DNA from: Tachypleus tridentatus
Taxonomy: Eukaryota; Arthropoda; Merostomata; Xiphosura; Limulidae
NCBI RefSeq assembly: GCF_004210375.1
Contig: NW_027467782.1
Coordinates: 26,825,276 to 26,889,275 of the forward strand
Length of the DNA: 64,000 bases
Reading direction: 5' to 3'
Shown: piece after piece, positions 1-63,733 of the stretch
Layout: each line of letters starts with the position of its first letter
How positions within the stretch are numbered: position 1 is the first letter of the stretch
Program-made: the position numbers and the translations under genes
Notes under the pieces: model-generated
The model's input: the letters and a program-made list of their open reading frames with translations, nothing else
What the model was told of the DNA's origin: nothing
Database searches by the model: none

Positions 1-849
1 CTTCCAAAAAACACCAAACTAAATATATTTTTCAATATCACAATAAACAAAATCACTGAAAATTAGTTTGATAATAAATTTTTCTTTTTTAAAAAATAAA
101 CCAAGTGACATGAAGAATGCTAAAAGTATCTCTGAAAAATCACAGCACTGGAAAACCCATTAGTGATACTGTCAAGCAAAAGTGGTAACTTTATCTGATT
201 AAGATGTTTACATGAAGAACCAGGATACCAACTGATGTAGATGGAAAGTGTATCGAGACAAATATCACTTAGGGCAATTAAGTGTGATATAAAAGAATGG
301 AGCAAGCAAGAAAATAATCAGACCAATGCTTTGATAGACAAATGAAGAAATGCTGGCAGTCAAGAATAGCTGTAGTGTGAGAGGAGGTATGTTTTGGAAA
401 CAATACATGTAATTTAAACTTTAACTTTTTATTGGTTATATATAATGTAGTATTAAATGTTACAAAGGAGTAACAGCAATTTGTGAAATAGAGGATGTGG
501 CAGATTGGTATGTCAAGTGAGTGATTTTCTAGTTTATGGCCTTGTACACAAAGAATGAAGGCTATAAACATTTCACTCTGTTCAAATAATAATTATATTA
601 TAATAAGCAGCTTATATTAAATTGTGTACTTCTGAAAGGAAAGGTCAATAAATTAAATACAAAGAGAGACTTAGAAAGTAAATTATCGATTCTATAACTA
701 AGGAAGATTGAGAATTTTTAAAGATACTTCCACATAAAATTAGAAACTTAAATATGGTATAATATTAACATTTTTATTTATTAATTATGTTTTGACATTA
801 GGTTTAATGCAATACATTAATATCAAAGTAGATAAATTGGATTTTGAAT

Positions 850-2830
850 GTAATTATGTAGAGAGGTTGCAACATATGCAAAATAGGTTAATGTATGGTT
901 AACACCATCAGCAATTTTAAGCATCATTTAATCATTACTTTATCCATATTATTGTGTAAATCAATAACAGCATACATCCAAACACTGAGGTATGCCTACT
1001 TGTGACATCAATCAAATTTAATTGAACTCCATTTAAAAAAAAAAAACCCTCTACCTTCTTCCATCCAGCCATCTTTCTATCCAAGAGCAAATTTGATCTC
1101 AGAATGGCTGGTATGGGTATTAACACTTTTATTGATAAGGAGAGAACAATATTTCAACTTTCCTAGGTCATCTTCAGATTAAAGAAGAGAGAGTTTTAGT
1201 GTGACTTTTCTTATGGACAAGAGTATAAACAGGTATGGGACTGTAGGGTATTGCAAGTGGATGTTAAGTTATTAATTAGTATAATGAGAAAGGTGTTCCT
1301 TTATATTCGTTTAATTTTGGTTTTCGTTGTTGTATAAGTAGGGTTTATTTGAATTTGTGTTTGTTTATATTTGTTTCCCTACTTGATATCTGGGTGTTTT
1401 CTATGGTTGTGTTGTGTTTATTTGATTTGCAGTGTTCAAAAAACATGTGAAAGTGTGTTTTTGTGTTCTATGAATCTAGTTTCCATTGTTTCTGCTTATT
1501 TCCCCAGTATAGAAGTCATGGCAGTTGTTGTATTGTATTTTATAAATTATGTTGGTGTTGTATTTGTCAGTGTCGTTTTTACGTAGAATGGACTTTAGTT
1601 TTTACCTGGTTTTTGAATAAATTTGATATTTACTGGAATGTTGCATTTTAAGTTTTTTTGAAATGTTTATTATTTTTTCGCTGATGTCGGGGTCATATGG
1701 TATGCAACAGTATAAGGTTTTGTAGTTTGTTGTATCTTGGGATTTATTGTTGTTTGTTTGTTGTTGGTCTAGGTGTGCGCGTGTATAATTTGTTCCATGG
1801 TTTTTGAGGAAAAGTGTCATTTTATTTTGTCTAATGCATAGTTAATTTCATCTGGTGAACACAGTTTTGTGGCTGTGTTTATTTGGTTTCTTAATATGTT
1901 GAGTTCTTGTAGATGCAAATCTAGCAATTGTATTATCAACATACCTGTACCAGTATAGTGGTGGATAGAAGGCTGAATTGATCGCTTGTGATTCAATCTG
2001 TGTCATAAAAATGTTGACATGGGATTCCCCATACTCATGCCATTTATTTGTAGATAGTTTTGGTAGTAGTGAATTCTATAAGGGTTACTAATTGGTTGCT
2101 GAGGGTGTGTGTCAATGGGTTGGGATCTTGGATATAAAGTTCTTAGGCTATCTTGTGGGTTTCAGTTGTTGGGACTTTGTGAAGACAGAGATTACATCAA
2201 AACTGGCCATTAAGGCTTTATGATTTAGTTGATTATGAATATATTTAAAATTGAAGAGTCATTGAAAAAGGATCCAGCTGATGTTACATGTTTAGTAAAT
2301 CCATAAACACTAAATGTACACTCCTACCCTTATCTTCTTAAGCAGTAGCCTCTTCAAAGAATGTCATAAGATTTGTAAAGCAATGTGTCCTTTACTGAAA
2401 CAATGTTGGCTACCTGAATCTAAAATTTTGTTCATTGAACTTAGAAAACACATTTTATCATACTTTCAAAAATATGTTTATGCAACTGATATAAGGCTAA
2501 TAGGCTTGTAATCACCTGGACAATTTTTATCTCTTCCCTTCAAAAGTGTGGTATCATTATCCAACTTCCAACCTGCTGATACCTGCCCACTATTCAAGAA
2601 CTAACAAAAAATATTATCAAGTGGCTCACGTATTCCCATTTTAACATCCTTCAAACTCCTTATGGAAATATTATCTAGTCGAGGAACTTTATTACTCTTT
2701 AATTTTCCAGTTATTTCTTAACAATTTCAGAACTGATGTGATAACATTGTTCAATATTGTCTCCATCTTGCAAATGACTAACATCAGGGATATTTGTTTT
2801 AATCAGACAAAAAATGAACACCTCACCAAT
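850..2830 (-). mobile_element. CR1/L2-type LINE relic (RT region), split by a Penelope-like insertion
   Basis: Read on the minus strand, 2830-2310 gives the reverse-transcriptase stretch of a CR1/L2-like non-LTR retrotransposon. A spacer resembling 'LNSGQVSAGWKLDNDTTLLK' is followed by PGDYKPISLISVA, the counterpart of the family's NYRPISLTSV motif. The LINE resumes at about 1025-850. A diverged relative at 40388-41450 shows the same order without the interruption: its sequence around 40735-40765 matches 985-1030 here and its 40800-41000 matches 2314-2520. The copy has many breaks and is not functional. The sequence between about 1030 and 2310 belongs to a nested element. Confidence 0.8.
1075..2300 (-). 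mobile_element. Penelope-like retroelement relic (RT and GIY-YIG parts)
   Basis: On the minus strand the order is: a piece resembling RT motif A (MASFDVISVFTKS, near 2210), a YGVSMGNP-like block near 2030, YWYRYVDNTIARFAS (the YVDD-box equivalent) near 1950, a YCCIPYDPDISEKI block near 1700, and a C-terminal stretch near 1530 resembling the GIY-YIG endonuclease start (IIYKIQYNNCHDFYTGE). RT joined to GIY-YIG is the hallmark of Penelope-like elements. The downstream non-coding end at 1175-1081, with a gaagatgacctaggaaag block, recurs at 20785-20870. It sits inside the LINE relic, so it is the younger of the two. It is an inactive fossil with several breaks. Confidence 0.8.
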
Positions 2831-3325
2831 CAAACAGTAAGAGAGTCCAGCAATAAATGATCACACAGAGTCTAAGATCAGGCTTAAATTGCATATGTGT
2901 AAAATGACCAGGCTTCAAAGAATTTGAGTACTAACTATAAAATGTTTCCTCATGATGCTACTACCACTCACAAAAGAGATCCAAATGAAACAAAGGAAAT
3001 TTGATGGGTGGAATTTTAACATCACAAACTAAGCAAACACACATGAGATGACAGTGAAGGATGAAGTTTGATTAGAGCATGATCAGAATTTAAAATGCAG
3101 CATGTGTCTCTCTCACTTAACTCAACTGAATAAACATAGACAAGGAATACGAATCCATCCCTCGTACAATACACTAGCTGTATTGGGGGTGACTCACACT
3201 ACACAGTGCCACCATTGCTCTACTTTTCACCATATTGTATTGTGCTGTACATAATCACTGAAGAACTCTACAAGATACACCATCCAAGCAGTCAGGAACT
3301 GGTAAGTGGCAAGGACATCCTTATT

Positions 3326-3658
3326 CTACTTGAATAAGGAGAGGGTGGGAATTAACATCTGGGAAATGCAAATAAATGCCCAGATCCCCATTAAACATCT
3401 GCCGGAAAGAATTTTTCCTATAGACAGTGCAAGAGATGACTGTGAAACACGATTTTGAAAAGCTGGCAAATGCAAGCCAAAGAAGTGGTCAGTTACTTCT
3501 TTGGTGCTGACTTTTTCCGTGATAGTCCATGGAATGGTACGGGCATGGTCGGGCAAATGAGTAAGTTTAATACCATGAAGATAATTAAGGTGGTCTTCCA
3601 TAACTCCCTTCCTCAAGAGTAGGCACTGTTCGAACCAGGAAAAATGGGGTGTGGGCAT
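3326..3658 (-). other. Unidentified 110-codon open frame, doubtful
   Basis: An open frame begins MPTPHFSWFEQCLLLRKG and runs 110 codons. I recognise no domain. The frame persists in copy B (48649-48954), but about 32 bp next to its 3' end differ between the copies, so the last residues change. No Kozak context, splice sites or neighbours support it. It could be a pseudo-exon, part of an old repeat, or chance. Persistence between 99%-identical copies is weak evidence of selection. Confidence 0.2.
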
Positions 3659-3659
3659 T

Positions 3660-5560
3660 TTCTTTAACCTACAGCCTAGTGTGAATCTTAGGAAATAATC
3701 ATACCATGGGAGGCAAAATCAACAGCTGGTGAAAGAATATAATGAAAAAACAGTGTACTTTTCTTTCTCAAAAACTGTGTGTAGATTGAAGAATATCAAG
3801 AACAAGGAGATGAAACTATCAGATCATGAAGACTGTTCATGAAGATGAATGTGTTTAGATTAATTCATAAGTCAACCTGAAGGTGCAAAAGAGACACAAG
3901 AAAGTAAGATAGATGACAAATTTGAGATAAAGTCTGCAAGCATCAATATCCAGGTAAGAATACATCAACATAAGGAGCTGGCAGACCTATCTAGTAAGTG
4001 TAGGAAGCAATAGGTCTCCAGATAAAGAATAAAAACAGTGATGGAAACCACAAAAAAAAAAGACATTCGTGCCATCTGATAATACATAAACCAGATACAG
4101 CAGATTGTCCAGATCCAAATAAGAATAGAGGTAAAAGATAGAAGGAGATAGGAGATAAAGAATGATCACTTTCCCGATAAGCTGAAGTATTGAAAAGAAA
4201 ACTTTGATCTGGGAGGAGAAATAAATAAGCATGGTGAAAAGGAGTGTGGAAAGAATTGACAATATATACATCCAAATGAAAGATACCACAGTTGAAAAGG
4301 AGAAAAAAAAATGTCTTTAGAGAAAGATGGTACAGATATCAAGAAGCCAATGTTTCAAATGGGACATGTGTGAGAGCATGTAAAACTACATGAAAGTCTC
4401 AGTCAGGCAAAGAGATTAGTGAAGAAGGAAGGACCAAACAAAGTGGAAAAAACAGAGGAAAGAAACACCTGATGGTAACAAGAAAGGATATGTGTAATTG
4501 ACAAATTTGTCCACTAATCAGTTATGGCAGAGACTGAAAATCCGTAATTGAACAATTATGTGAAAAAGGCCAAAATATGGACAATGTCAAGAAAACCTGG
4601 GAGTTGCAAATGGCAGATGGAACAACTATAAAGAACTTGCAACTTCCAGTGACAAAGTTCAAAGATGACAGGAACGGGATAAGAAGGCAAAACAATTCAA
4701 AAGTCCAGCCCACCAGGAAGTGGAGTAAACAAATTCCACACAAGAAGAAAGGGTGACACCACGTAAGGTTGGAGCAAGAAAGGGGGAAAGGGCAGAGGAT
4801 AAGGGGATTTCAAAGCCAAATGAAGAGAAGAGGAAACCAAAGAGGAACAAGCAACAGGACCCAATGAGGAGTGTTATATATAAAGGCCTTGACAAAAGGA
4901 ACAAGATGAAGAATGAAATAGACATTCAGAAAAAGGTGAGAAAAGTCTTGGCTGAAAGCATCAACCATCAGAGATTAAGAAGGAACTGAAAATCAGATAA
5001 ATGGAAGTTTGGTGTTGATAGCAGTGGCAAAGGTATTAGGAGCATGCCCAATGAGAAAATGAGAGTGGAGTGACCACTCTGTAGGTAGAATCCAGTCTGG
5101 TCAAGAAAGGTGATCTGTTTTAAGGTTTAGAGCCATAGCAATTCAATTCAAGCTGTAAAGGAGATAAAGATATGATAAATCTGGTGAAGCATGACTTACA
5201 GAAGTTTCCTCAACTCTAAAGAGAGCCCAGAATAAGTGATATGTATCAATTTTGTACTCACCTCAACAAAGTAGCCATGGATTAATCATAGGAACTGAAG
5301 GATCACAAAGAATAAAAAATCATAGCACATCTAAAAGCATTCTGAGAGGCAACATAACACTTCAAAGGCCTCACTGGATATAACAAATTATCAGAATACA
5401 ATCAATTATAGAGGTGAGGAATGGCAGTTCATTTAGAAATATGAGCCATGAAAAATTGATGACCTGAGGGCAGTACAGATGGGGGAAAAGTAAATAGCAT
5501 GTTTATGAAATAATTGCTGAAATGGCTTCAAGGTTAGTGTAATGACGTAAGAACATACAC
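3660..5560. other. Unidentified sequence, purine-rich on the plus strand
   Basis: No repeat or gene recognised. The plus strand is strongly A+G biased, notably at 3900-4500 and 4680-5000, which opens several short frames on both strands. None is preserved intact between the copies: a plus-strand frame at 4753-4989 is disrupted in copy B. The counterpart is about 48960-50850. Confidence 0.4.
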
Positions 5561-8500
5561 ATATATATTCTTCTAAAACATTTAGTGAGACAACAGATTT
5601 TAACTCAATTTACATCATTAACATTATTCAATTATCAAGACATCTCAAATGTATTCAAAATACTAGTTCTATTATGTGCTGCATTATCCAGTTGTGCAGC
5701 TCATATTGATCCAAAAGCATTTACACTGTCCTCTGTATGTTATTGTGCATACATATTGTTGACTTACTGACAAAAATTGTAGGATTTAGGAAAGAGTATC
5801 CACTTTGGGCCTTCATCTATGTTCAGTTTGTTTCCAACTCCAGTCACCAAAAAAATGAAAGTCTGGCTGTAGACACAAAATTTGGCTCAAGACATAGCAA
5901 GCCTAGATAGTGGCTCACCTAACATGCTGCACATGGAAGACATGTTGAGATAAATTCAAATGCAGATATGTCAAAAAACACTGTTCAAACATCTTGTTCT
6001 CTTCTCCTTTTCCAACAGAAGCTGAGGTAATATCACAACCTTTTATGGGTACACATTTGAGGCAATGATGCAAGCAGTAATAAAATAGTAGTGTCTACCA
6101 ACACTAAATGTTAGCCAGAGTTCCAAAACGTGTAGGTTGTGCAACTTGGACCTCGCAAATGCAACAACATTCACATTAGCATCTTCATGCCTGCATGGAT
6201 CATCAATGTCTTGTAAACACATGATCAAACTGAGTGATGTACAACTCCATCTTACCAATAACATGACCAAGTTAAGTGTTGTACAACCCCATCCTCTTAA
6301 TGCAAATCACAAAAAAGTTTGTGGGTGAGATAACAAAAGACCTCCTGTTCCACTGTTGCAGAGATAAGCAGCCCAATCTTTCGGAACGGTTGTTTTGTAC
6401 GAGACCTACCTCTGGAGCTTATCCCATGAACATTCCATTGTCTATTAAACTGAACTATTGGCTATATATTTGTCCCAAACATACAGACTATGAATATTTT
6501 AAAGTTTTAACCTGATGAGAGTACAAAGTTAGTATCTATATATACTTCAAAAATTCTAGCACTACTTGATTTACCATGTTTATAATACTTCTTTCACCAA
6601 AAATGTTCATACTAACTTTTGGAGATAATCCAATGGAAATACTGTTGCAAATTACTTCAAAAAATAGTGCAAAGTCTTACAAGTAGTAAGTGTCATTATT
6701 GTGCTGCAACAGAACTTTTTGCTACTGTAGAATAATGATCCAAGTTACCTACAACTGTTTTTCAGACAAAACCTTCCCCCTTTGTATCAGGCACATTTGA
6801 TGTCAGTTACCAATCTTTAATCTCTATTATTTTATTTACGGAGTTATGATAGCAGAATTTGTGATAAACATGACCATGGGTCCTACAAAATAAATCCACT
6901 TTTTTATCCTCATTCAGATAAGAAATGAAGTCACCAGCTAAAAAATATTAAAAACAAGCAAAACAATTCTGGTAAGTTTTGCTTTGTTAGAAAGAAATAT
7001 GGCAGTAACTATCATAAGAAATATTTTACAAAATGGTATGTGGTATTTCCTTAAACTTCTCTAGCAGGACAAGCACCATAACATAAGTTCAGAAATTCTT
7101 CCGTAATAAAGGTATGATTGATGTACATAATTTCAAGTTTTGCCAGAGAGAGTAACAAGTTGCTAGATGAAAAAAGAATTGTCATGGCAATCATTTTTTG
7201 GTTTTCTAAATCACATTTAACTTAATTAATATTATATGCAGCTCCTTACAAAAGCTTTCTGAAAAGTCAACTTAAATCTACTTTTCATCATTATTCAGAT
7301 AAGAAATAAAGTCTTCAACAAAACTTGACAGGCAAAATTTTTCCTTTGTAAAACAATTTTGTCAGGTTTTACTTTTATTATTAAGTCAAAATATGGCAGT
7401 ATAAATTAAAATGAATGATTAAAACAATGGTTAATGATGTTTTACTGAAGTCCATTATCAAGAACAGCACAACAATAAGCTTCGCAATTCTGAAAAGGAG
7501 TTAGTGTGTAGTTGTCTATAAATTTTACCAGCTTACACCTTATTTTGAAACCTAAACTCTTGACCTATCATAGCTACCCTAACCAGTCTTTACCCAACTG
7601 AGAGTCGTACAATAATCATGCTTTACATTTAACTATTTCTGCCTCTCTTTCAAAGAACTTGAGATTGTGGGAATACTGGTAATGTCTCATCAGGTTTTGA
7701 AAATAAAGGACAATGTCTCACCCAAATATTTTTATATGATCTGTGTTTTTATCTGTTTTTTATTACTTTTTTGAAGCATTTTGAAAGTTTGTTTGCCTGT
7801 TTTAAAGCAAGAATTTGACTATGTGAGGAAAATTAGTTCAAAAGAATGTTTCCAAATGAAAATTTAGGTAGGTAATTTGGTAATTATAATTTGTATTTTT
7901 CAGGATAAGAAATTAAACATTGTTGCATAAAATTAGAATCTCATCAGAAAGAAATGGTTCTATTGCAATAAAGCATTTGTCAAACACATTTTTCAGTTGA
8001 ATACAAGAGACTAAAAAGTTTATTTTTGGAAAATGCAAGACATTTATATGAAAAAATTTGTCTGAACATAAAACAAAAAATGATGGTTTACTTCATGTAA
8101 AGAAAAACATAGAGCAACCACCCACAACTGAAACATTGTTCAAACACATTTCTTAAATATTTATAAAAAAATGAAGAAATTTTGGTGGTAGACTTCATTT
8201 GATTACTGCATTCAAGTCTTGTTCTAATTTTTCATAAAGTATGCATCTTATATTTTATTAAAGTAATCCCAAATTTTTGCAATACTGTACTTATGAACAG
8301 GAATGTAACATCATAAGTTATTTTGTTTTAGAGCACAAGTCAGTGATCATGAAAATAAGAAATTGTCCTGGATCCTAAGATTATTGGCATCTATCATATT
8401 CATTACAGAAGATTTTAAACTTAAGATGTAAATGCTTTTAATATGCTATCCCTGCCTTAGAACTTCAAGAACACACTACTGACCATCATTTTAATTATTC

Positions 8501-8690
8501 CTTTTAATCAAGACAACCGTATTCCCTCTTATTAAATAAAGTAAAATCAAAACAGGACAAAACAGGTTTAAAAAAGAAAGAGCCCCTACCTTATTAATCT
8601 GTTGATTGACAATTTATTATCTAAGTGAGGATGAAAGAAATGATTTAGTTTTAACATAATAATCAGAAAGCTTTTTTAAGATGTCACATA
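5560..8690. other. AT-rich sequence with nothing recognised
   Basis: No gene, SINE or transposon terminus was recognised. The longest frames are about 80 codons and lack recognisable motifs. The counterpart is about 50850-53970. Confidence 0.5.
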
Positions 8691-9687
8691 GAGTACCAGT
8701 GCAGAAAAATTACCTCAGTCATGCAGCTGGATAAGTTATTTAAATGGATTGAAGACAGGCTATGTGGAAGGATGGGAAAAGTTAACAGAGTTCAGACAAA
8801 CTAATGTTACAAATAGTGTGACCTGTGATAGGATCACTGCTTTCCTCATTTACATTACTGAAACACTGTTAATTAAGTTTACAGAAGATACAAACATCTT
8901 CAGTCAGAAATGATTTGATTTTGCACAAACTTAGATTAGTTGATTGTTAGGTAAATACATGACAAATGGTATATAATTATAACATATAATTATAATGTTA
9001 TGCACTGGGATTACCACTACAAGTTAATGATAAACTTTAGATTGGAATGCTTTTAATTATGTTGATGAAATTAATGACTCAGGACACTGGCTGAATTCTT
9101 AAGCCTTCGTGACAGTGTTCTATCACATATGGTAAATTTTGGGTTGAATATACTGATTATCAGTCTCAGATGGCTACAGTATCATTAATCACTATTCAGG
9201 CATCATCTGGAGTACTGCATGCAGTTTTGGTCTCCATATTGTAATAAGTACATTGAGTTGATAGATATAATTCAGAGAAATGTCACAAGGATATTATTTC
9301 TTGGACAGATAGGTTGAACTATGACGACAGATTCTTATTTCTTAATTACTTTTCTCACGTAAAGAGAAGGCCCAAAAATGATTTGAAAAATTCAAAACTA
9401 TCAAGTAAATAGATCAACCTTTTTGTGTGTTAAATTCTAAGGATGGTAGGTCAAACAAGAGTTCACAAATTTAAGATCTGGAAAGGTCAAACTCATCTCC
9501 AGTTGAGGATTTTTTCTTTCAATAGGGTGGTGAATGTGGGGAAGAATCTGTCATCTATAATGCAATTCTACAGAAGTTTAAGAAAAAGAGCTGTTGAACA
9601 TTTGGAGGTGGATTTAATAATTAAGTTTTATAAGGAAGGTTGGGAGTTAAGAGATAATAGTACTAAAATGAGCAAAATTACCTAGTG
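8690..9687 (+). mobile_element. CR1/L2-type LINE relic, 3' end of RT ORF
   Basis: Plus-strand translation shows a degraded RT end. WIEDRLCGRMGKVNRVQT lies near 8740. A counterpart of the LVDWSNKWQM box (VNTWQMVYNYN) lies near 8950. LEYCMQFWSPYCNKYIELI, the family's LEYCxxVWxPY motif, lies near 9210-9270. An 80-codon tail at 9443-9685 with RVHKFKIWKGQTHLQLRIF and FNRVVNVGKNL ends at a TAG. This is the normal end of CR1-clade ORF2. The upstream part has many breaks. A hAT element begins two bases after the stop codon. Confidence 0.8.
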
Positions 9688-12582
9688 CAGGGGGTTTCCA
9701 ACGTAAGAGTGCCCGAGGGCCACAACTACAGTCACAAGTCTAGTGGTGGGCGGCATTATATTTTTGTCAAATTAGGGCTTGTTAGTGTATTACATAATGC
9801 AAAACAAAGAGTAATAGATCCATGGTAGGGTTAATTTATGTCCTTTCAACATAGTAAAATGAGTTATGATTGGGGAAGGAGTTAATCTGAATGGGACTTA
9901 CTTTATGTTACATGATATTTGGATGGACATATTTTCAAAAAAAGATGTATTTCATTGTGAAAATAAAAGGAAAATATAACTTAAACATGTTCAATTATGT
10001 AATGAATAATTTTATTGAAAAAATGCTGCATATAAAAGAAATTAGAATAGCAAACATATCTATGATATTTAATAAACTAAGTACATAAAAGTTTCAATGT
10101 GAACTATGAGGTCGCTCAGCAACACTGACCAAAGCAGGTTTGTTGACATGGAGTTCTGTCATTGCTAGTCTTAGGAGGTGAAGTAGAGAAGAATCTGTGA
10201 GGCGACATCTGTTGTGGTTCTTAATGAATTTCATAGTGGAGAACACACTTTCACATATATATATGTGCTACCAAACATTGATGTAATTTTCTGTCCAAAG
10301 TACACAGATTTGAAAATAGATTTTTTGAAAGTAGTTTAAAGAAATCTGGTCCTTCTTCTTGTCTGGTTTGCAGAAAGGGATCAGCTTGCAAATCACATAA
10401 TTCAAGTTGAACATCAGCTTGTTGATTTTCTGTTAACACAAAGAGGATTATTGAACAACTCTATCCTGCTTTTATAATTTCAAATTCTTCGAATCTTGCA
10501 TTAAACACATCAATAATATCTTCAAAATTTACACAAAATTCTAAAAAATCAAGTGACTCATCATCTTTGAACTGTTCTATTAATTACTGACAACTCAGAA
10601 AGTGGCCCAAGTCATTCTTTTCTAAGTAAACTTTGAAAATTCTTAACTTCTTTTGAAACCCATTTATGTTTCCCATTAAATCTGATATCATCTAGTTCTG
10701 CCCCTGGAGCTTTAGGTTGAGATCGTTAAGGTGAGTGGTGATGTCTATGAGAAAAGCCAGTTGTATCAGAAAATCCTTACTTTTGAGCTCTTCTTCCAAT
10801 TGTGTTGTATCTGATGAAACAAATTGATTGAGGAATACAGGGATTTCTTTCCTTATTCCAAAATATTGTTCACATCACTTTCGGGCACTGAGCCACCTTA
10901 CTTGGTTTTAAAGTAAGTATATGCTGCTTCCATATCCTCCAAGAATTCCTTTAGCTGCCAATGTAAAAAAGCTTTGTTTCCTCCTCTTATCAGGTAAATA
11001 ACTTTAACAAATTTAAAACTTTGTTTTGATTCACTGATTTCCACCACAAAGCTCCTTGATGAATAACACAATGAAATGTTGGGCAAGTTACTTAATTTTC
11101 CTTAAAAAAACCAACAAAGCCTAATTTTTTCCAATCTTTGCAGGTGTGCCATCTGTCACTATTGCTGAACACTTATTGAAACCTCCGATTTTATCAACTG
11201 AATTTTCACTGCCTTGAAGATATCCTTTCCTTTTGCGGCCCCATGAAGAGCTCATACATTCAATAATACCTCTTTCTTTGAAATATCTTCAACAACACAT
11301 ACAAATATTAACAGCTGACTAACATCTGCTTCATCAGTACTTTCGTCAAGACAGAGAGAAATAAGTACTTTTTTTCCCAGTCCAACAAGCGAGTTTTCTA
11401 ATTGTTCTCCCATATCAGTGACCCTTCTTTGTATGGTTTGGTTGGAAAGTGGCACTGATTAAAATTTCTCAGCAGTTTTGGCATCCCAAAACACCTTTGC
11501 CATTTCAACAGCACATTTCTTTATTAAACTGCTATCAATAAAAGGTTTCTTTGCCCTTGCAAGGTCAAGAGAAATGATGTATGAAGCATATGAAGTAGAT
11601 GTCTGGCTTTCTGACAACTTGCTAAACATATTCGTTTGTTGTTTTAATTTCTTGCTGAAATCCACAATCTGAACTTTGAGTTTCTCCTTCATAATTTTTA
11701 TACTTTTATTCGTGCATAGTTGAATAATGTTTTTTCACATTAAATTCTTTGGGCACTGATATAATTTGCATACAAATCAAACACTACAACTTGCCAATAT
11801 TGTTTGTAATAAAATAATCAAGTTCCCAACATTCCTGGTACACTATTTTCACTGTTAATCTTACGTTTCTTAAAAATTTTGTTCATTTTTATATTTAACA
11901 TGGAATTAAACAGTGATAATTTACAACATATCAACCACCACAACAGCAAACAGACAGACTGGCAACAGCCAACAGCTGGGCAAGTTCACTTTGTCTAGCA
12001 GAAAGGAGGGGTATATAACTCAGTGAATCACTTTGTCTAGCAGGGGAATGATGGTATACTATGTTCACTTTGTCTAGTAGAAGGAGGGAGTATACAACTC
12101 AGTGAATCCACTTTGTCTAGCAGGGGGAATGATGGTATACTATGTTCACTTTGTCTAGCAGAAGGGAGGGAGTATACAACTCAGTGAATCCACTTTGTCT
12201 AGCAGGGGGAATGATGGTATACTATGTTCACTTTGTCAGAAGGGAGGGAGTATATAACACAGTGAATCCACTTTGTCTAGCAGGGGGAATGATGGTATAC
12301 TATGTCGAGGTGTATGTGACATAATTTAAAAGCTCTTACTATCAAGTTATTACTGTAAAATTATAGAGGCATAATTAATAAACATATAGGTGCTGACAAA
12401 ATAAATTTTAAAATTCATTAGTGAATACTAGTTGGAGCTTTCATGCATTTTTACCTCGCAAGTAAGAATTTTTCATTTCTTCATTACAAAAAAAAATATT
12501 ATAAAAGTAGGTTATGTTTCAATTGACTTTTGCAGGCCACATAAAACCATGCAGCCTGCGTGCCACCTGTTGCAAATCTCTG
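9688..12582 (-). mobile_element. hAT DNA transposon (ZBED5/GTF2IRD2-like transposase), broken
   Basis: This is a 2.9-kb element with imperfect terminal inverted repeats. The left end starts CAGGGGGTTTCCAAC; the right end, read inward, starts CAGAGATTTGCAACAGG. Both run into a GC-rich ...GGGCC(A)CA block typical of hAT termini. The transposase lies on the minus strand. Near 11870-11700 is a BED-finger-like segment (CLIC...H..MHE). Then come segments at 11692-11459 (FSKKLKQQTNMFSKL), 11455-11252 (CLDESTDEADVSQLLIFV), 11086-10898 and 10439-10251. A C-terminal dimerisation motif near 10260-10110 reads CESVFSTMKFIKNHNRC. These match the hAT family of the vertebrate ZBED5/GTF2IRD2 genes. Frames are interrupted by several stops and shifts, so the element is inactive. 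Its transposase 5' side carries a minisatellite (11985-12304). Confidence 0.88.
11985..12304 (+). repeat. Minisatellite inside the hAT, four units of about 80 bp
   Basis: Each unit is composite: a half of about 44 bp starting ttcactttgtctagcaga and containing gggagggagtata, then a half of about 38 bp starting cactttgtctagcaggggg and ending tatactatg. Both halves share cactttgtctagcag. Four units are present here and three in copy B. The array lies between the transposase 5' end and the right terminus. The plus-strand open frame across it (12142-12324) is a by-product. Confidence 0.93.
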
Positions 12583-12590
12583 GTGGATCG

Positions 12591-12830
12591 ATGGGATAAC
12601 AGCATCTGAAGACAATACAAATAGAGGACACAAGTTTAGGATTTGGAAAAACAGACTTGGCTTCAGTTAATACATTTTTATTTACATAACAGGATGACTG
12701 ACTCAAGGAGTGTGTTACTACTGGCAATAGTGAAGGTTGGCACTTTACAAGAGTTTATTGATGGGTTTACAGTCTTACTTTCTCACAAGTGGATATGTAA
12801 GGAGAGCTTTGTAAAACCAACCAAATAGTC
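12591..12830 (+). mobile_element. CR1/L2-type LINE relic, C-terminal tail
   Basis: Plus-strand translation gives a degraded version of the CR1 ORF2 end: a GHKFRIWKNRLG-like block near 12630, NRMTDSRSVLLLAIVKVGT near 12690-12750, and LQEFIDGFTVLL near 12745-12780. This parallels 9443-9685 but is a separate, older fragment on the other side of the hAT. Copy B counterpart: 57797-58038. Confidence 0.65.
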
Positions 12831-12839
12831 CTCTGTTGT

Positions 12840-14040: not shown

Positions 14041-14045
14041 AATAA

Positions 14046-14302
14046 TTGGTCCAGTAATTAGGTCACTCAGTTTGCAACTGAGAGTTGAGGTGCCATTTCT
14101 CATCCTTCAACATGCTCACTCTTACAACCATGGAACATTATATGCAACACTTAATCCCACTACTCATTTGTAAACAGTAGCTAAAGAGTTGGTAGTGTCG
14201 ACAAACTACATTCTCTCTAGTCTATTACTTAAACATTATGGACGATTATTACAAGTGGCCTTGTGTGGCTTTGTATGAAATTTCAAACTAAACTAACTAA
14301 AA
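14046..14302 (+). repeat. Old tRNA-Thr-type SINE
   Basis: This is a strongly diverged copy of the SINE seen whole at 39260-39533. The head has lost its B box, but catgctcactc, ccactactcattt, agagttggtagtg, ctctctagtcta and gtggctttgtatgaaattt follow the body in order. The same copy is at 59257-59513. Confidence 0.7.
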
Positions 14303-14734
14303 GAACACTATGTATCATCTTAAACAGAAAACATGCAGACAATAGTAATAACACAGTAAGCAATATGAACCATTTAACCTTTACAGGTAGTTACATATTT
14401 CTAGAATATTTCACTACCAAAGTTAATTTCTACAGCAACAATAAATGAATAACATTAGTAATGCTATTACTGGTACAAACAGCAGTGCTGTCAGAAGGGG
14501 TATTAAGGCCGTGTTTTCTATTTGCAGAACCATGTCGGCTGTAATGCGCTATTATAATTAAATACACCTTATAATTAGTATGCTTGCTGCTGACACTGTC
14601 AATGACAGTTCTAATACTAAACACTAGAAATATAACCTTGGTATATTGAAAACATTACGTTAGGCTAATCGCTGTTTAACTTGTACTTCGAGTTTAATGA
14701 ACTTATTTTCTTATAGGAATTATCTTTCTCAGCT

Positions 14735-15473: not shown

Positions 15474-15479
15474 AAAATA

Positions 15480-16220: not shown

Positions 16221-16222
16221 AA

Positions 16223-17549: not shown

Positions 17550-17560
17550 AGCTATAAGGC

Positions 17561-17613: not shown

Positions 17614-17646
17614 TCTATTAGTTACTCAGCGCTGAATCTACCTGGA

Positions 17647-19920: not shown

Positions 19921-19924
19921 TTAA

Positions 19925-48954: not shown

Positions 48955-48959
48955 TTTCC

Positions 48960-53970: not shown

Positions 53971-54968
53971 GAGTACCAGTGCAGAAAAATTACCTCAGTC
54001 ATGCAGCTGGATAAGTTATTTAAATGGATTGAAGACAGGCTATGTGGAAGGATGGGAAAAGTTAACAGAGTTCAGACAAACTAATGTTACAAATAGTGTG
54101 ACCTGTGATAGGATCACTGCTTTCCTCATTTACATTACTGAAACACTGTTAATTAAGTTTACAGAAGATACAAACATCTTCAGTCAGAAATGATTTGATT
54201 TTGCACAAACTTAGATTAGTTGATTGTTAGGTAAATACATGACAAATGGTATATAATTATAACATATAATTATAATGTTATGCACTGGGATTACCACTAC
54301 AAGTTAATGATAAACTTTAGATTGGAATGCTTTTAATTATGTTCATGAAATTAATGACTCAGGGCACTGGCTGAATTCTTAAGCCTTCGTGACAGTGTTC
54401 TATTACATATGGTAAATTTTGGGTTGAATATACTGATTATCAGTCTCAGATGGCTACAGTATCATTAATCACTATTCAGGCATCATCTGGAGCACTGCAT
54501 GCAGTTTTGGTCTCCATATTGTAATAAGTACATTGAGTTGATAGATATAATTCAGAGAAAGGTCACAAGGATATTATTTCTTGGATAGATAGGTTGAACT
54601 ATGATGACAGATTCTTATTTCTTAATTACTTTTCTCACGTAAAGAGAAGGCCCAAAAATGATTTGAAAAATTCAAAACTATCAAGTAAATAGATCAACCT
54701 TTTTTGTTTGTTAAATTCTAAGGATGGTAGGTCAAACAAGAGTTCACAAATTTAAGATCTGGAAAGGTCAAACTCATCTCCAGTTGAGGATTTTTTCTTT
54801 CAATAGGGTGGTGAATGTGGGGAAGAATCTGTCATCTATAATGCAATTCTACAGAAGTTTAAGAAAAAGAGCTGTTGAACATTTGGAGGTGGATTTAATA
54901 ATTAAGTTTTATAAGGAAGGTTGGGAGTTAAGAGATAATAGTACTAAAATAAGCAAAATTACCTAGTG
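53970..54968 (+). mobile_element. CR1/L2-type LINE relic, 3' end of RT ORF, copy B
   Basis: This is the copy B counterpart of 8690-9687, including the 80-codon C-terminal frame at 54724-54966 with one substitution (S for M near its end). It is followed directly by the hAT element. Confidence 0.8.
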
Positions 54969-57788
54969 AGGGGGTTTCCAACGTAAGAGTGCCCGAGGGC
55001 CACAACTACAGTCACAAGTCTAGTGGTGGGCGGCATTATATTTTTGTCAAATTAGGGCTTGTTAGTGTATTACATAATGCAAAATAAAGAGTAATAGATC
55101 CATGGTAGGGTTAATTTATGTCCTTTCAACATAGTAAAATGAGTTATGATTGGGGAAGGAGTTAATCTGAATGGGACTTACTTTATGTTACATGATATTT
55201 GGATGGACATATTTTCAAAAAAAGATGTATTTCATTGTGAAAATAAAAGGAAAATATAACTTAAACATGTTCAATTATGTAATGAATAATTTTATTGAAA
55301 AAAATGCTGCATATAAAAGAAATTAGAATAGCAAACATATCTATGATATTTAATAAACTAAGTACATAAAAGTTTCAATGTGAACTATGAGGTCGCTCAG
55401 CAACACTGACCAAAGCAGGTTTGTTGACATGGAGTTCTGTCATTGCTAGTCTTAGGAGGTGAAGTAGAGAAGAATCTGTGAGGCGACATCTGTTGTGGTT
55501 CTTAATGAATTTCATAGTGGAGAACACACTTTCACATATATATATGTGCTACCAAACATTGATGTAATTTTCTGTCCAAAGTACACAGATTTGAAAATAG
55601 ATTTTTTGAAAGTAGTTTAAAGAAATCTGGTCCTTCTTCTTGTCTGGTTTGCAGAAAGGGATCAGCTTGCAAATCACATAATTCAAGTTGAACATCAGCT
55701 TGTTGATTTTCTGTTAACACAAAGAGGATTATTGAACAGCTCTATCCTGCTTTTTATAATTTCAAATTCTTCGAATCTTGCATTAAACACATCAATAATA
55801 TCTTCAAAATTTACACAAAATTCTAAAAAATCAAGTGACTCATCATCTTTGAACTGTTCTATTAATTACTGACAACTCAGAAAGTGGCCCAAGTCATTGT
55901 TTTCTAAGTAAACTTTGAAAATTCTTAACTTCTTTTGAAACCCATTTATGTTTCCCATTAAATCTGATATCATCTAGTTCTGCCCCTCGAGCTTTAGGTT
56001 GAGATCGTTAAGGTGAGTGGTGATGTCTATGAGAAAAGCCAGTTGTATCAGAAAATCCTTACTTTTGAGCTCTTCTTCCAATTGTGTTGTATCTGATGAA
56101 ACAAATTGATTGAGGAATACAGGGATTTCTTTCCTTATTCCAAAATATTGTTCACAACACTTTCGGGCACTGAGCCACCTTACTTGGTTTTAAAGTCAAT
56201 ATATGCTGCTTCCATATCCTCCAAGAATTGCTTTAGCTGCCAATGTAAAAAAGCTTTGTTTCCTCCTCTTATCAGGTAAATAACTTTAACAAATTTAAAA
56301 CTTTGTTTTGATTCACTGATTTCCACCACAAAGCTCCTTGATGAATAACACAATGAAATGTTGGGCAAGTTACTTAATTTTCCTTAAAAAACCAACAAAG
56401 CCTAATTTTTTCCAATCTTTGCAGGTGTGCCATCTGTCACTATTGCTGAACACTTATTGAAACCTCCGATTTTATCAACTGAATTTTCACTGCCTTGAAG
56501 ATATCCTTTCCTTTTGCGGCCCCATGAAGAGCTCATACATTCAATAATACCTCTTTCTTTGAAATATCTTCAACAACACATACAAATATTAACAGCTGAC
56601 TAACATCTGCTTCATCAGTACTTTCGTCAAGACAGAGAGAAATAAGTACTTTTTTCCCAGTCCAACAAGCGAGTTTTCTAATTGTTCTCCCATATCAGTG
56701 ACCCTTCTTTGTATGGTTTGGTTGGAAAGTGGCACTGATTAAAATTTCTCAGCAGTTTTGGCATCCCAAAACACCTTTGCCATTTCAACAGCACATTTCT
56801 TTATTAAACTGCTATCAATAAAAGGTTTCTTTGCCCTTGCAAGGTCAAGAGAAATGATGTATGAAGCATATGAAGTAGATGTCTGGCTTTCTGACAACTT
56901 GCTAAACATATTCGTTTGTTGTTTTAATTTCTTGCTGAAATCCACAATCTGAACTTTGAGTTTCTCCTTCATACTTTTTATACTTTTATTCGTGCATAGT
57001 TGAATAATGTTTTTTCACATTAAATTCTTTGGGCATTGATATAATTTGCATACAAATCAAACACTACAACTTGCCAATATTGTTTGTAATTAAATAATCA
57101 AGTTCCCAACATTCCTGGTACACTATTTTCACTGTTAATCTTACGTTTCTTAAAAAGTTTGTTCATTTTTATATTTAACATGGAATTAAACAGTGATAAT
57201 TTACAACATATCGACCACCACAACAGCAAACAGACAGACTGGCAACAGCCACCAGCTGGGCAAGTTCACTTTGTCTAGCAGAAAGGAGGGAGTATATAAC
57301 TCAGTGAATCCACTTTGTCTAGCAGGGGGAATGATGGTATACTATGTTCACTTTGTCTAGTAGAAGGGAGGGAGTATACAACTCAGTGAATCCACTTTGT
57401 CTAGCAGGGGGAATGATGGTATACTATGTTCACTTTGTCTAGCAGAAGGGAGGGAGTATATAACTCAGTGAATCCACTTTATCTAGCAGGGGGAATGATG
57501 GTATACTATGTTGAGGTGTATGTGACATAATTTAAAAGCTCTTACTATCAAGTTATTACTGTAAAATTATAGAGGCATAATTAATAAACATATAGGTGCT
57601 GACAAAATAAATTTTAAAATTCATTAGTGAATACTAGTTGGAGCTTTCATGCATTTTTACCTCACAAGTAAGAATTTTTCATTTCTTCATTACAAAAAAA
57701 AATATTATAAAAGTAGGTTATGTTTCAATTGACTTTCGCAGGCCACATAAAACCATGCAGCCTGCGTGCCACCTGTTGCAAATCTCTG
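54969..57788 (-). mobile_element. hAT DNA transposon, copy B
   Basis: This is the counterpart of 9688-12582, with the same transposase fragments (56972-56739, 56368-56180, 55720-55532 and others) and the same minisatellite with one unit fewer. The first C of the left terminus is lost. Its flanks keep a recognisable 8-bp target-site duplication, ACCTAGTG on the left (54961-54968) and ATCTGGTG on the right (57789-57796). Six of eight bases match and both differences are transitions. Eight base pairs is the hAT standard. Confidence 0.88.
57265..57510 (+). repeat. Minisatellite inside the hAT, three units of about 82 bp
   Basis: This is the counterpart of 11985-12304 with one unit fewer. The composite two-half unit structure is identical. 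Confidence 0.93.
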
Positions 57789-57796
57789 ATCTGGTG

Positions 57797-58038
57797 GATC
57801 GATGGGATAACAGCATCTGAAGACAATACAAATAGAGGACACAAGTTTAGGATTTGGAAAAACAGACTTGGCTTCAGTTAATACATTTTATTTACATAAC
57901 AGGATGACTGACTCAAGGAGTGTGTTACTACTGGCAATAGTGAAGGTTGGCACTTTACAAGAGTTTATTGATGGGTTTACAGTCTTACTTTCTCACAAGT
58001 GGATATGTAAGGAGAGCTTTGTAAAACCAACCAAATAG
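57797..58038 (+). mobile_element. CR1/L2-type LINE relic, C-terminal tail, copy B
   Basis: This is the counterpart of 12591-12830, with the same degraded C-terminal block directly to the right of the hAT. Confidence 0.65.
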
Positions 58039-59256
58039 TCCTCTGTTGTCATACTATTGTTATATATTACAAGTACATAAAGTAATATCTTAAGAATGGA
58101 ATCCTATTAAGTCAAGAATTATGAAGAAAAAATGCACAATATTAGAAAGCTGTAACTCATTAAGTGTTTGAAGTCAACATATTTCATTGAGGATTTTTTT
58201 AGTTAAATGCTTATGAAATACACTCTGAAAACAACTTAAACTGAGATCCTTTTTGAGCAAGAAATATAAAACATGTAACTTGTTTAATAAAATATTTTAT
58301 TCATCAAAAAAGCTGTATTTTGTAAACTATTCAAAGCAAATAATGAAATTGTTGTTAAAGCACAACTGATAAATTTAAAATAATTTTGAAAGCAAGTTAT
58401 AATTCATTTTGCAAAAGACAAGCAATAGACATTAATCATTATGTTTTTCACACATAATAAACATAACACCAAGAAATGTGTAAACTGTAATCACTGTAAA
58501 GAGACTGTTGTGTGAATCAACCTATTTTCTGTTGATTCCAACTGTACTGTAGAAAATAAATTTTTTATTTCAATAACAAATTCATTTATTTTCTGGTTAT
58601 TTCTCAAAGAAACATTCTCAACAGTGTTTGTTTTGATTTGATTATTTGTTTATAATGTTATGTCTATTATCACCTTATAAAGTATTCACAATTATGAGGA
58701 TAATTTGTAATTGGTTGATTTACTACCCTGTGATGCTAAGTCATTGGTCAAAGATTAGCACATTTTATCAATCAACTGTCAGTGTAAAGATGGCTATGAA
58801 GAATGTTTATAAAGAATGCACCATCTGATGGTACACCATGATTTTATTACTTACACTTAGTGTTTGGTAGCTTAAATATCTTGTCAAAATCTGGGTATCA
58901 GTTAATCTGAAAATGTCTGAAGGTTATTGATGGTGCTATTATTTTTATAGTCTGTTACTATTTGTTAAAAGTAGTGCTCATCAACAATGCTAAAATTTAG
59001 AGGAGGAAAAATTTAAATCAAATTATATGCTATAAAAATATTTACCCAAAACAATACTATTTCTTCATTAAAATACATAAATAAAATAACACATATAATA
59101 GAAACTTGCAAATTGATTATATATTTACTATAGTGTAATTTTAAAGACTTTGTTGTTGTTTTTTTCCAATTATGAACTAATAAATGCTCCATGGTATGAA
59201 CTTCACCTTAGCAAATGGGAGCTACTGCTACACCTGTATTGTCATTTCTACAATAA

Positions 59257-59513
59257 TTGGTCCAGTAATTAGGTCACTCAGTTTGCAACTGAGAGTTGAG
59301 GTGCCATTTCTCATCCTTCAACATGCTCACTCTTACAACCATGGAACATTATATGCAACACTTAATCCCACTACTCATTTGTAAACAGTAGCTAAAGAGT
59401 TGGTAGTGTCGACAAACTACATTCTCTCTAGTCTATTACTTAAACATTATGGACGATTATTACAAGTGGCCTTGTGTGGCTTTGTATGAAATTTCAAACT
59501 AAACTAACTAAAA
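59257..59513 (+). repeat. Old tRNA-Thr-type SINE, copy B
   Basis: This is the counterpart of 14046-14302, virtually identical. Confidence 0.7.
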
Positions 59514-59947
59514 GAACACTATGTATCATCTTAAACAGAAAACATGCAGACAATAGTAATAACACAGTAAGCAATATGAACCATTTAACCTTTACAGGTA
59601 GTTACATATTTCTAGAATATTTCACTACCAAAGTTAATTTCTACAGCAACAATAAATGAATAACATTAGTAATGCTATTACTGGTACAAACAGCAGTGCT
59701 GTCAGAAGGGGTATTAAGGCCGTGTTTTCTATTTGCAGAACCATGTCGGCTGTAATGCGCTATTATAATTAAATACACCTTATAATTAGTATGCTTGCTG
59801 CTGACACTGTCAATGACAGTTCTAATACTAAACACTAGAAATATAACCTTGGTATATTGAAAACATTACGTTAGGCTAATCGCTGTTTAACTTGTACTTC
59901 GAGTTTAATGAACTTATTTTCTTATAGGAATTATCTTTCTCAGCTTT

Positions 59948-60036
59948 TCATGATGACGAGAAATCCACCTGAAGTGAAAATGTATTCTCAAGATGGCTGG
60001 TATGGATAGTAAAACTTTAATTAAAATACAGTTCTG
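59948..60036 (-). mobile_element. Penelope-like element terminal fragment, copy B
   Basis: This is the counterpart of 14735-14825. Confidence 0.55.
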
Positions 60037-60571
60037 TACTTTTAAGTTTCATCTTTTTCCTCTTACGTCTTTGAATCTATTTAATTCATCTCACATAATT
60101 AAATAATAAGATAAATAACTTTTACTTTCTTACCTTTACACAGTATCAAAATATGTGTATCCATTGTAGCATTTGTAGTTGTACAGAACGTTAGGTTTGC
60201 TTCCAGGAAATTTATATTAGATTTAATCAGTTCTGCTACGAGTAGATATATCTTAGAGCTTCATAACAAACAAGAGCAAAAGTATCGTTATTTGCAACAC
60301 AGCACACTTTTGTTTTTGAAATGTAAGTTTTTCTAAAATTTATAATAAATCAAGTCCTACTAACTCAAACGCATGTATAATAACATTCTAATACCAACTT
60401 CTAACAGTAACACTTTAATTCGCGCCATTTGTATACTTCGCCATCTGTCCTTTAAAAACCGACACACTCGAAAAGAAAAAAAATTGACAAAACAATGCTT
60501 CAGCTAAAACACTCGCTTGATTGTTTTGTTTGGGACTGTATTTTTGCTGACATTTTAAAGTAAAAATAATC

Positions 60572-60685
60572 TTGTTTGTTTTGTTGTTAAATACAAAGAT
60601 ACACAATGCATCATCTGCCCACCTTGGGTATCGAAACCTGATTTTAACAGAAAAGCACTCAGACACTCACCGCTTAGCTTGTGGG
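60572..60685 (-). repeat. Short tRNA-derived SINE (family 2), copy B
   Basis: This is the counterpart of 15362-15473. Confidence 0.65.
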
Positions 60686-61435
60686 TGAAAATAGCTCTCG
60701 TGTTCCTTCCATAATTCGACTTTTATTTCAGACGAATCAGCAAGAGAGCAGAGAGAGAAACAGACACGTACTTCACAACTTCGTATCTATCTTACTCCAG
60801 TAAGTGGACCCATACTGTTTGCTTTAAGTGAAATCTGTGAGTCAGAAAATGCAACAGAGAAGTAAGTAAAGTGAAATTTTGATGCTGTTGCTAGATTATT
60901 AGCGTTTTAACATTATCAGTCATATGTCACCCATAACCCGTTGTGGGTTTTCTAATTTTATATTAACTAAGTCTTCCGCTTTTCTATAGCATTGCAAAAC
61001 TTCCGGTTTATCTGCCAATTAGAATTTCTTAAGCTTTCGCATTTACCCTTGATATTTTATTTATGGCTAAACATGAATAGTCTATTTACGTTTTAGAAAA
61101 CCTTGATTCAAAAATTCACGTTTGAGGTCAATAAATCCAGATAATGTTTCAAAAAGTTATAACGAATATAACACAGTGTAAAGGTCTTAAATGCTCGCTG
61201 TGTAATCTCCTAATGTTGATATTAAATTAGAACGTATTTCACTTCACATTCAAAAGACTGTTTTCATATATTAATATATCCATCATTTTATGAAAAACAA
61301 TTCTGTCAAATGGAAAATTCCTAGATTAAAAATGACTTTGGGTAAGTTTTATGTTAAAATTTCTTAATTATAATTGATTTTCTTTACAAAATGTTTTCCA
61401 GGTATTCTGTATAAGAAATTCTCACTAACTTACAA

Positions 61436-61563
61436 CCCTCCCTCCGTGGCACAGAGGCATGTCTGCGGACTTATAACGTTACAATCCGGATTTCAATACC
61501 TGTGGTGGGTAGAGTATAAGTAGCCCGTTGTGTAGCTTTGTGTTTAATTACAATCAAACAAAA
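61436..61563 (+). repeat. Short tRNA-derived SINE (family 2), copy B
   Basis: This is the counterpart of 16223-16350. Confidence 0.8.
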
Positions 61564-61991
61564 ATCACTTACACTTTATTGTTTAATATTTTTATAGGTT
61601 TGAAGTCCATATGTCCTGATGGTTTTTCAAAACAATTACACTGTGTAACATAAATTTTGTTCCTGGATAATGAGTGCTATTTTTTAATTGCTTATGTTGT
61701 AAAAGTATAGAAAATGGCCATTATTCCATTCAAACTTTGCTTTTGTGACCTGGATAATGAAATTTAGAAATTAACCTATTTCCTATGAAAAACAGGCAAA
61801 TTTGCACGTGTTCATTTACACAAGGTCTGAATAAAATAACATATGAATCAAGATTTCCATGTATTTATACTAAAGTTATACAAAAATGTTTAGAAGTGAG
61901 TAGTTTTTCGAGATTTGCAACTGTAATGTAAATCACTTTCACATAACAGCCTCCAAATATAGTCTTCCATCATGTTTTCGTTATACGCTTC

Positions 61992-62761
61992 TTAGTAGCG
62001 GCGTTCAAAGTTCAGTATATCTTGGTGGAAGCGCTCGCCTTCCTCCTCTAAGGATGCTCCCATGTTCTCCTTAAATTTATCACGGTGAGCGTTAAGGATA
62101 TGGACTTTCAGGGGCATCCTGCAGCCCATTTTACCGTAGTTCTTCACCAGAGTCTCAACCAGTTCTACATGATTTTGAACCTTGTGATTGCCCAAAAAAC
62201 CTTGAATCACTGCGACAAATCTGCCCCAAGCTTTATTTCCTTCCTACTGGACTTCTTGAGGAATTCTGCGCACTCGAGGATCTTTATTTGTGGTCCAACG
62301 AAAACACCAGCTTTGACCTTTGCCTGAGACAGCTTAGGGAAGAAGTCTCGAAGGTACTTGAAGGCTGCAGACTCCTTATCAAAAGCTATGACAATTTGTT
62401 TCATCAGATCCAATTTTATGTGCAATGGTGGAAACTACACCTTCTGGAGGTCCACTAGTGGCTCACACTTGATATTGCACCTCCACACAGAGAATTCAGT
62501 CCGTTGTGGCCAGTGCTTCCTGTTGTGGTGTGCTGTAATGTCCTTGCTGTCCCAGAGGCAAAGGTAAGAGGAATACTTGGTAAAGCCTCCTTGGAGACCA
62601 ATCAGGAATGCCACCATTTTGAAGTCTCCGATAACCTCCCATCCATACTCATCATACTTCAAAGCTTCTAGCAAGGTCTTGACGCTGTTGTATTCCTCTT
62701 TGAGGTGCACCGAATAAGCCAGGGAAAGAGATAGATTATTATTCCCGTTATGGAGCAGCAC
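61992..62761 (-). pseudogene. Dispersed conserved gene family of unknown function, copy B
   Basis: This is the counterpart of 16780-17549 with the same three pieces and motifs (GGFTKYSSYLCLWDSKD, HIKLDLMKQIVIAF, GERFHQDILNFERRY). It has a few substitutions relative to copy A. At one position copy B reads CLWDSKD where copy A reads CLWVSKD. It is also broken. Confidence 0.72.
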
Positions 62762-62772
62762 AGCTTTAAGGC

Positions 62773-62825
62773 TTCTACAACATTCTAGTAAGTTCTTGAA
62801 TATTCTTGTAAGTTCGTGAAAATTC
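62773..62825. promoter_or_regulatory. Heat-shock-element array, copy B
   Basis: This has the same 11-position array as 17561-17613, with units at 62773 to 62823. One unit is changed (GTA at 62788 in place of GAA), leaving eight exact units. The secondary GAAnnTTCnnGAA near 62857-62869 is retained. Confidence 0.78.
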
Positions 62826-62858
62826 TCTATTAGTTACTCAGCGCTGAATCTACCTGGA

Positions 62859-63161
62859 ATGTTCTGGAAAATGGATAAATTGAAAAATTTCATTACCAAA
62901 GCCATAAAAACAAAGTTTGAAGAGAAAAATAGGTCTTTTCCATCTACTTTAGGCATAAGCGATTGGGAAATAACGCTTTCTTCTCAGAAACAAGAAAAAG
63001 TAAAAGTTACAGGCAATGAGAATAATGAACAAATTTTTCTTGGTGATTTTCAATCGCAAAGAATTCGTCCAACCACATTTCAGTTTAATAGTTATATTAA
63101 ATTAGATGAGGCTGTGTGTTTTCTCGCAGCTAATTTTTTACGTAACTGGACCAGATTGTGA
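62859..63161 (+). CDS. Unidentified 100-codon frame, copy B
   Basis: This is the counterpart of 17647-17949 and is uninterrupted. It differs by five substitutions (for example I for T at residue 16 and V for E near residue 87). There is no recognised domain. Its persistence is only weakly informative because the copies are so similar. Confidence 0.35.
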   Translation: MFWKMDKLKNFITKAIKTKFEEKNRSFPSTLGISDWEITLSSQKQEKVKVTGNENNEQIFLGDFQSQRIRPTTFQFNSYIKLDEAVCFLAANFLRNWTRL

Positions 63162-63733
63162 GCAACACATGAAAAGTGTAGCTTGCTTGCGCACAGAATG
63201 AACAATGAGCCTTGGTTACATGTTAAACTCACGCATAAAGACATAAGAATAATGAAGAAAAATCGAGAAAAAAAATTCTTGTAATTCCAAAATAGAGATC
63301 CATTACGAGCAAGTATTTTTATTTTTATATTCGTCCCGGCGGCAGTTTCTGTGCAGTACAGAAAATTGATATACTTATACAAAATCGTCTGGTATTTGTA
63401 ACCAATTTCTGTGGTAAGTTCCACCTTATCACTGCTTTTCACACGTTTTGGCAGAGAAAGTGTCCATCATGATAATATTAATTGTTTCTTCTTGAGTGTG
63501 AAAATCAAAATACAAAAACTCAAATACATTACCAATTGCACGATATTAGGAAAACAAAAACGTGCTGAAGTACATTCGGTGGTCTAGTGTATTTTTACAG
63601 AAAACATTATTGCAATAAATATGTTCTTCTACTTTTCTACGTTGGGAAGAATACTTCAGAAGAAGGGAATGGGCTTACAAACACTTTCAGGAGGTCAGTG
63701 AAATCTCTAAAGGAAAACATTTCAGAAACATGA

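Follow-up and report, generated by a model that had tools for sequence, protein, structure and literature searches.

Near-identical 18-kb copies beside a scaffold gap in Tachypleus tridentatus as probable members of a dispersed segmental duplication family that carries part of an anoctamin-1-like gene

The interspersed segmental duplications and core duplicons of primates are large blocks that include parts of genes, are mosaic in structure, are 98–99% identical among copies and lie on several chromosomes. Haplotype duplication artefacts of genome assembly take another form, in which near-identical direct copies stand at a scaffold gap and differ by as much as the heterozygosity of the animal. 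We analysed a stretch of 64,000 nucleotides (the window) from the horseshoe crab Tachypleus tridentatus (RefSeq assembly GCF_004210375.1, contig NW_027467782.1), in which two direct copies of an 18-kb core, A and B, flank a 500-N scaffold gap, and in which A is followed by part of an anoctamin-1-like gene. Our reading, to which we give a probability of about 0.78, is that A and B are paralogues within a segmental duplication, or amplicon, that has been amplified recently. This family is like the primate duplications in all the features listed above and unlike them in its host, in a tandem array with a period of about 970 bp that the unit carries, and in that any function or expression here is putative; it is unlike the assembly artefacts in having more than two sequence groups and an equal arrangement that contains no gap. 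Recent interspersed duplication of blocks with part of a gene is a well-known kind of event, which is strongly amplified here. Among horseshoe crabs, 230 tandem gene clusters are reported for the mangrove species (PMC7210998), and these are similar in that they are lineage-specific duplicated genes, whereas the copies described here also lie across several scaffolds and many are fragment-like.

The assembly searched contains 2,167,478,450 bases in 205 contigs, the mitochondrial COX1 being on C205. The window occupies positions 26825276-26889275 of the contig here called C19 (69,812,617 bases); positions within it are marked w, and negative positions lie to the left of window base 1. Genome searches were made with 3-kb pieces of the window, and 40 candidate places were scored per piece. 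The core piece w4500-7500 is found at 12 places at 93–100% identity, A and B included, the remaining matches (70–76%) being to a short dispersed repeat, and the core piece w12800-15800 has matches of more than 1 kb at 95–100% at 16 places, again with A and B, besides two of about 0.36 kb and some short pieces. Both searches pooled give 16 core places, on C19, C1, C2, C3, C4 and C8 and in both orientations. The left block, which precedes the core, matches over at least 1.86 kb at 95–100% at 15 places (w41800-44800; shorter matches are a dispersed repeat), and the right block, which follows it, at 40 or more places with a main piece 87–100% alike (w24000-27000). Segmental duplications are expected to be blocks longer than 1 kb and more than 90% identical that stand in at least two places of an assembly, and the blocks found here are of this kind. 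C19 holds 3.2% of the bases, yet 19 of the 40 right-block places scored lie on it, as do 16 of 54 places of an anoctamin exon (below), and it looks unusually rich in recent duplications. Within a unit, the approximately 970-bp tandem array is followed by a left block of 5.3 kb, then by the 18-kb core and then by the 3' part of the anoctamin-1-like gene or gene fragment in antisense orientation. Consecutive units on C19 are spaced by about 46 kb (gap included), 88 kb and 76 kb, and two of them, C (26.95 Mb) and D (27.03 Mb), lie in direct order 75.7 kb apart within 115 kb that contain no N at all. A reading of this DNA made earlier from the letters alone (the sequence-only reading) had proposed a young segmental duplication; the kind of event holds, but the isolated 18-kb pair that it pictured is replaced by a dispersed family of many copies. 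It offered a choice between a private duplication and a pair of haplotypes joined across the gap, which is too narrow a choice.

A and B align in direct orientation in three pieces, w1-2134 with 45590-47722 (98.6%), w2393-12228 with 47721-57512 (98.5%) and w12063-18521 with 57264-63733 (99.1%), which bears out the earlier description of two roughly 99% identical direct copies, their outer boundaries and the gap between them. All but two of the 39 single-base insertions or deletions (indels) between A and B lie in homopolymers of at least four bases, as long-read error predicts, so that the BLAST percentages underrate the likeness of the copies; with gaps ignored, A and B differ by 147 substitutions in 21,948 sites, or 0.67%, over the 5.3-kb left block and the core to w17168. 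It had also been said that all nested repeats are common to A and B, and this is not so, since B lacks w2135-2392 and has one fewer unit of an 82-bp repeat (Table 1).

The relationships among the copies change along the unit. In a tree of six copies over positions -5276 to 12600, A is sister to C and B is sister to D, each with support of 1.00, and over 13500-17168 A groups with B (0.886) and D with the C4 copy (1.00). When 15 intervals of 1.5 kb were compared, some of them near-ties, the nearest copy to B was D in 12, C in one and A in the last two, and the nearest to A was C in ten, the C4 copy in two and B in the last three. B is the nearest copy to A only to the right of about w12650, and A is the nearest to B only to the right of about w14130; two haplotypes should be mutually nearest along their whole length, and A and B are not. 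The 258-bp indel at w2135-2392 agrees with the left-hand grouping. Over w4500-5510, ten of the twelve copies found with w4500-7500 fall into four groups at least four substitutions apart, namely A with C; B with D, C19:29.50, C3:57.89, C19:32.52 and C4:65.32 (contig and position in Mb); C4:57.61; and C2:55.96. One locus of one diploid animal cannot hold four such groups. The best partners outside the window vary as well, the spacer of A matching over its full tested length at C4:57.58, the right flank of B best at C8:73.0 and that of D at C19:32.54; this patchwork resembles that of mosaic segmental duplications, and mis-phased contigs could produce some of it.

What fixes the length at 18 kb is a local event within A (a short interspersed nuclear element, SINE, with a deletion) together with the position of window base 1, and not the ends of the duplication. 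At w18521 A runs directly into a 273-bp SINE, whereas in B 1,747 bp intervene before the homology restarts. From w18795 on, the homology of A continues for 3.9 kb with B, at 97.9% identity, and as far as w35954 with unit C; the right flanks are thus related, contrary to the sequence-only reading. Unit C leaves the shared core already at w17168 and the C4 unit at w17222, so that this stretch is variable among copies. On the left, the check which that reading had proposed, a comparison of the DNA left of base 1 with w40388-45589, gives a match at 97.7%. SINEs of this kind, about 270 bp long and 72–83% alike, occur five times in the window in both orientations (18522-18794, 18886-19151, 32680-32976, 38432-38682 and 39235-39530). 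The C2 copy runs straight into a large repeat array (C2:55971549 onwards), and kin of that array, at about 70–75%, lie beside B at C19:26894939-26895765.

The gap most likely lies at or beside the tandem array that precedes the left block. At the place that corresponds to it, the array ends about 400–660 bp leftward in A, C and the C4 copy, and D keeps a short piece. The short period of the array is 970-971 bp in A, 969 bp in C4 and 972 bp in C, and A and C4 also show a longer one of about 3.8 kb; D has no clear period. Among the matches listed, the array monomer stands beside 12 of the 15 left-block places (at C7:116.65 as a 101-bp piece only); none is listed at C8:158.13 and C1:140.23, and at B the place falls in the gap. 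Within the spacer between A and the gap, w36000-38400 is matched over its whole length at a single further place of the 40 scored, C4:57580512-57582916.

The number of places in the assembly, the order shared by the units and the relationships of the copies are direct observations; how the units spread and exchanged sequence we infer. The units would have been multiplied by tandem duplication through unequal exchange, whole blocks would have been copied onto other scaffolds, and gene conversion or crossing-over between copies would have followed. Such exchange between copies would leave A like C and B like D on the left and A like B on the right.

For a chromosome-scale assembly of the tri-spine horseshoe crab, PMC7210998 reports that 4855 of the 34,966 proteins have duplicates of at least 98% identity, and calls it redundant and mis-assembled. 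Table 1 of PMC7815833 lists T. tridentatus CNA0000821 with 204 scaffolds, 2,167,470,406 bases, a scaffold N50 of 169,002,194 and 34,966 genes; as the gene count is identical, the critique very likely concerns the assembly used here. If A and B were unpurged haplotypes, two alleles of one locus scaffolded in tandem across the gap, then the gap between them, the published redundancy of what is apparently this assembly and their distance would all be accounted for, since 0.67% is equal to the heterozygosity given for a different T. tridentatus animal, about 0.65% (PMC6390705), and by itself fits alleles. We nevertheless regard this as very unlikely, for A and B are not mutually nearest over about 18 of 22 kb, ten copies fall into four well-separated groups, for which a single diploid animal, if that is what was sequenced, would require two loci or more, C and D have an equal direct arrangement without a gap, and the spacer between A and B is not found between C and D. 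The earlier suggestion of two haplotypes joined in tandem accordingly finds no support as regards A and B being each other's alleles.

A milder form of the same idea, that the family has several real copies but is inflated by redundant contigs, with B, D, C19:29.50, C3:57.89, C19:32.52 and C4:65.32 being a few loci assembled repeatedly and scattered by scaffolding, is possible, and we hold it only tentatively. These six differ by 0–2 substitutions per kb though they lie on three scaffolds, the right flank of D is held in common with C19:32.5 (5209 of 5232 bits), and both the concentration of right-block places on C19 and the published critique point the same way. On the other hand, C3:57.9 has about 5 kb extra near w15190, a point across which 11 other copies align without interruption and at which C3:67.06 shows a lesser break; B, D and the C2 copy diverge at different points on their right flanks; and k-mer estimates of genome size, 2.14-2.15 Gb, speak against redundancy. 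Coagulogen is a mark of horseshoe crabs, and the assembly contains coagulin-family exons; as a weak check, the coagulogen gene at C11:9.02 Mb is without equal by bit score, yet C7 has several coagulin-like exons with similar scores. A giant mobile element of 50–90 kb that carries a piece of the anoctamin gene would be dispersed as these copies are, on six scaffolds and in both orientations, and to the eye a pair of decayed frames in the core resembles transposon genes. A transposable element should have constant ends with target-site duplications, however, and the ends of the six units compared are not constant: homology to A stops at w22735 in B, at about w21775 in D and at w35954 in C, and the limits of the C2 copy are w45091 and a point 373 bp beyond the window. 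No mobile-element family scored above the Pfam cut-off in the 16 entries scanned, and we consider this explanation highly improbable; with differing end points among the six units and no protein of that sort recognised, a mobile element or endogenous virus was set aside as the main idea.

Several points weigh against the paralogous amplicon itself. Besides the agreement between the A-B distance and heterozygosity, the right flanks of D and C19:32.5 are alike as those of alleles would be, and copies of the array monomer lie as well on C13, C1, C9, C11, C12 and C2 where no left block is known. The assembly used here has 2.17 Gb and another T. tridentatus assembly 1.72 Gb (PMC7815833, Table 1); given the larger size and the published duplicated proteins, some copies may be redundant contigs, and the A-gap-B join may be a candidate order produced by scaffolding. 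The relationships among the copies and the stretch without N from C to D favour distinct loci in the animal, and the published redundancy speaks against them. As judged from sequence comparison, A and B are probably mosaic paralogues and the family is probably real, and the copy number and the A-gap-B order are provisional. A bolder extension of the amplicon reading, that an anoctamin-bearing unit is spreading now, in dozens of copies concentrated on C19, homogenised by gene conversion and varying in number between animals, with C19 perhaps heterochromatic, sex-linked or supernumerary, is in our judgement unlikely.

The identity of the gene part rests on the exon at w30200-30364 (C19:26855475-26855639), which scores 80.0 bits against PF04547, well over the curated cut-off of 28, and whose best solved relative is anoctamin-1 (E 9.4e-21). 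It is the only part of the window in the list of PF04547 matches, where unit C appears also at 26996060 and 27007932. Of the 90 such matches listed for the assembly, 54 are to this exon (16 on C19), 17 to 5' exons and 19 to the part between; many anoctamin copies may thus be 3' fragments, although exons elsewhere in the gene are more easily missed. The matching was to a family model and not to window DNA, and ordinary, separate anoctamin genes are surely among the 54. In 12 copies of the exon (A, C and ten others) the frame is open in ten, and both splice-like motifs, judged by eye, are also kept in eight. The exons at C7:116.69 and C13:131.16 have a premature stop in common, the latter with a 1-bp deletion in addition, and it seems that one inactive exon lineage was itself duplicated; the donor is changed in C19:40.25 and the acceptor region in C13:93.95. 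The exons at C9:122.86, C1:103.55 and C19:27.51 are identical to that of A, though the nearby block is 92% alike. Selection was considered as the cause and rejected: synonymous sites and short flanks are like those of A as well, which argues for exchange between copies. The literature search returned no paper with a title on anoctamin (TMEM16) expansion in horseshoe crabs.

These results mean that the anoctamin piece and the interval between A and B belong to one of many related units and are not a single misplaced locus, so that gene counts, synteny and duplication dates taken from this assembly call for caution in their vicinity. Should the copies be real, anoctamin genes and gene fragments would be unusually numerous in this horseshoe crab by comparison with other animals, some of the copies would differ by no more than alleles do, and copy number in natural populations would be directly testable. 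The number of anoctamin exons and their concentration on the 70-Mb scaffold C19 should be of interest to those who work on horseshoe crab genomes.

Table 1. Features of the window and how they were recognised (positions in the window; C, D and C4 denote other units).
Feature	Position	Strand	Basis or remark
Core block, copy A	1..18521	+	Pieces at 12 and 16 places, 95-100% alike
258-bp stretch	2135..2392	+	In A, C, C2:55.96; absent from B, D, C19:29.50, C19:32.51, C3:57.89, C4:57.61, C4:65.31
82-bp tandem repeat	11984..12305	+	Four units in A and three in B (57264-57512)
SINE copy, 273 bp	18522..18794	+	Alignment of copies; B has 1,747 bp here (C19:26889009-26890755)
A-B right-hand homology	18795..22735	+	Matches C19:26890756-26894703, right of window
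Right block, colinear with unit C to C19:26994481	18795..35954	+	Alignment
Last anoctamin-like exon	24459..24657	-	E 0.0018 with anoctamin-1; an A-run indel shifts the frame of C and C4 relative to A
Anoctamin-like exon region, by eye	25440..25584	-	Frame shifted in C relative to A by C-run indel
Further 3' exon, anoctamin-like by eye	27561..27738	-	Same open frame in A, C and C4 unit; AG/GT ends; alone, no anoctamin match in Pfam
Anoctamin exon (PF04547 positions 333-387)	30200..30364	-	Open frame, splice-like ends
A-B spacer	35955..39887	+	No match >500 bp and 90% between C and D
500-N scaffold gap	39888..40387	.	Window sequence
Left block of B	40388..45589	+	Copy preceding A lies outside window, C19:26819999-26825275
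Core block, copy B	45590..63733	+	Window self-alignment
First 267 bp of the 1,747-bp stretch missing from A	63734..64000	+	Matching DNA in D and C2 copy

The 16 entries scanned with Pfam represent 15 distinct frames (17223-17621 was entered twice, and 62435-62833 is its copy in B), picked from 17 frames of at least 120 amino acids and 110 of at least 62 outside copy B, a minority of all frames, and none of the selected entries matched over a curated cut-off. The decayed frames that resemble transposons by eye are both on the minus strand, one hAT-like (w11255-11734) and one a repeated protein (w16783-17621), neither of them over the Pfam cut-off. Rfam at its gathering threshold and ARAGORN gave no match in the window. 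The number of CpG dinucleotides is 14–25 per 4 kb in 11 of 16 segments, where base composition predicts about 100, and 74–103 per 4 kb at 16–24 kb, 36–40 kb and 60–64 kb, a pattern that suggests DNA methylation and CpG loss in the older DNA.

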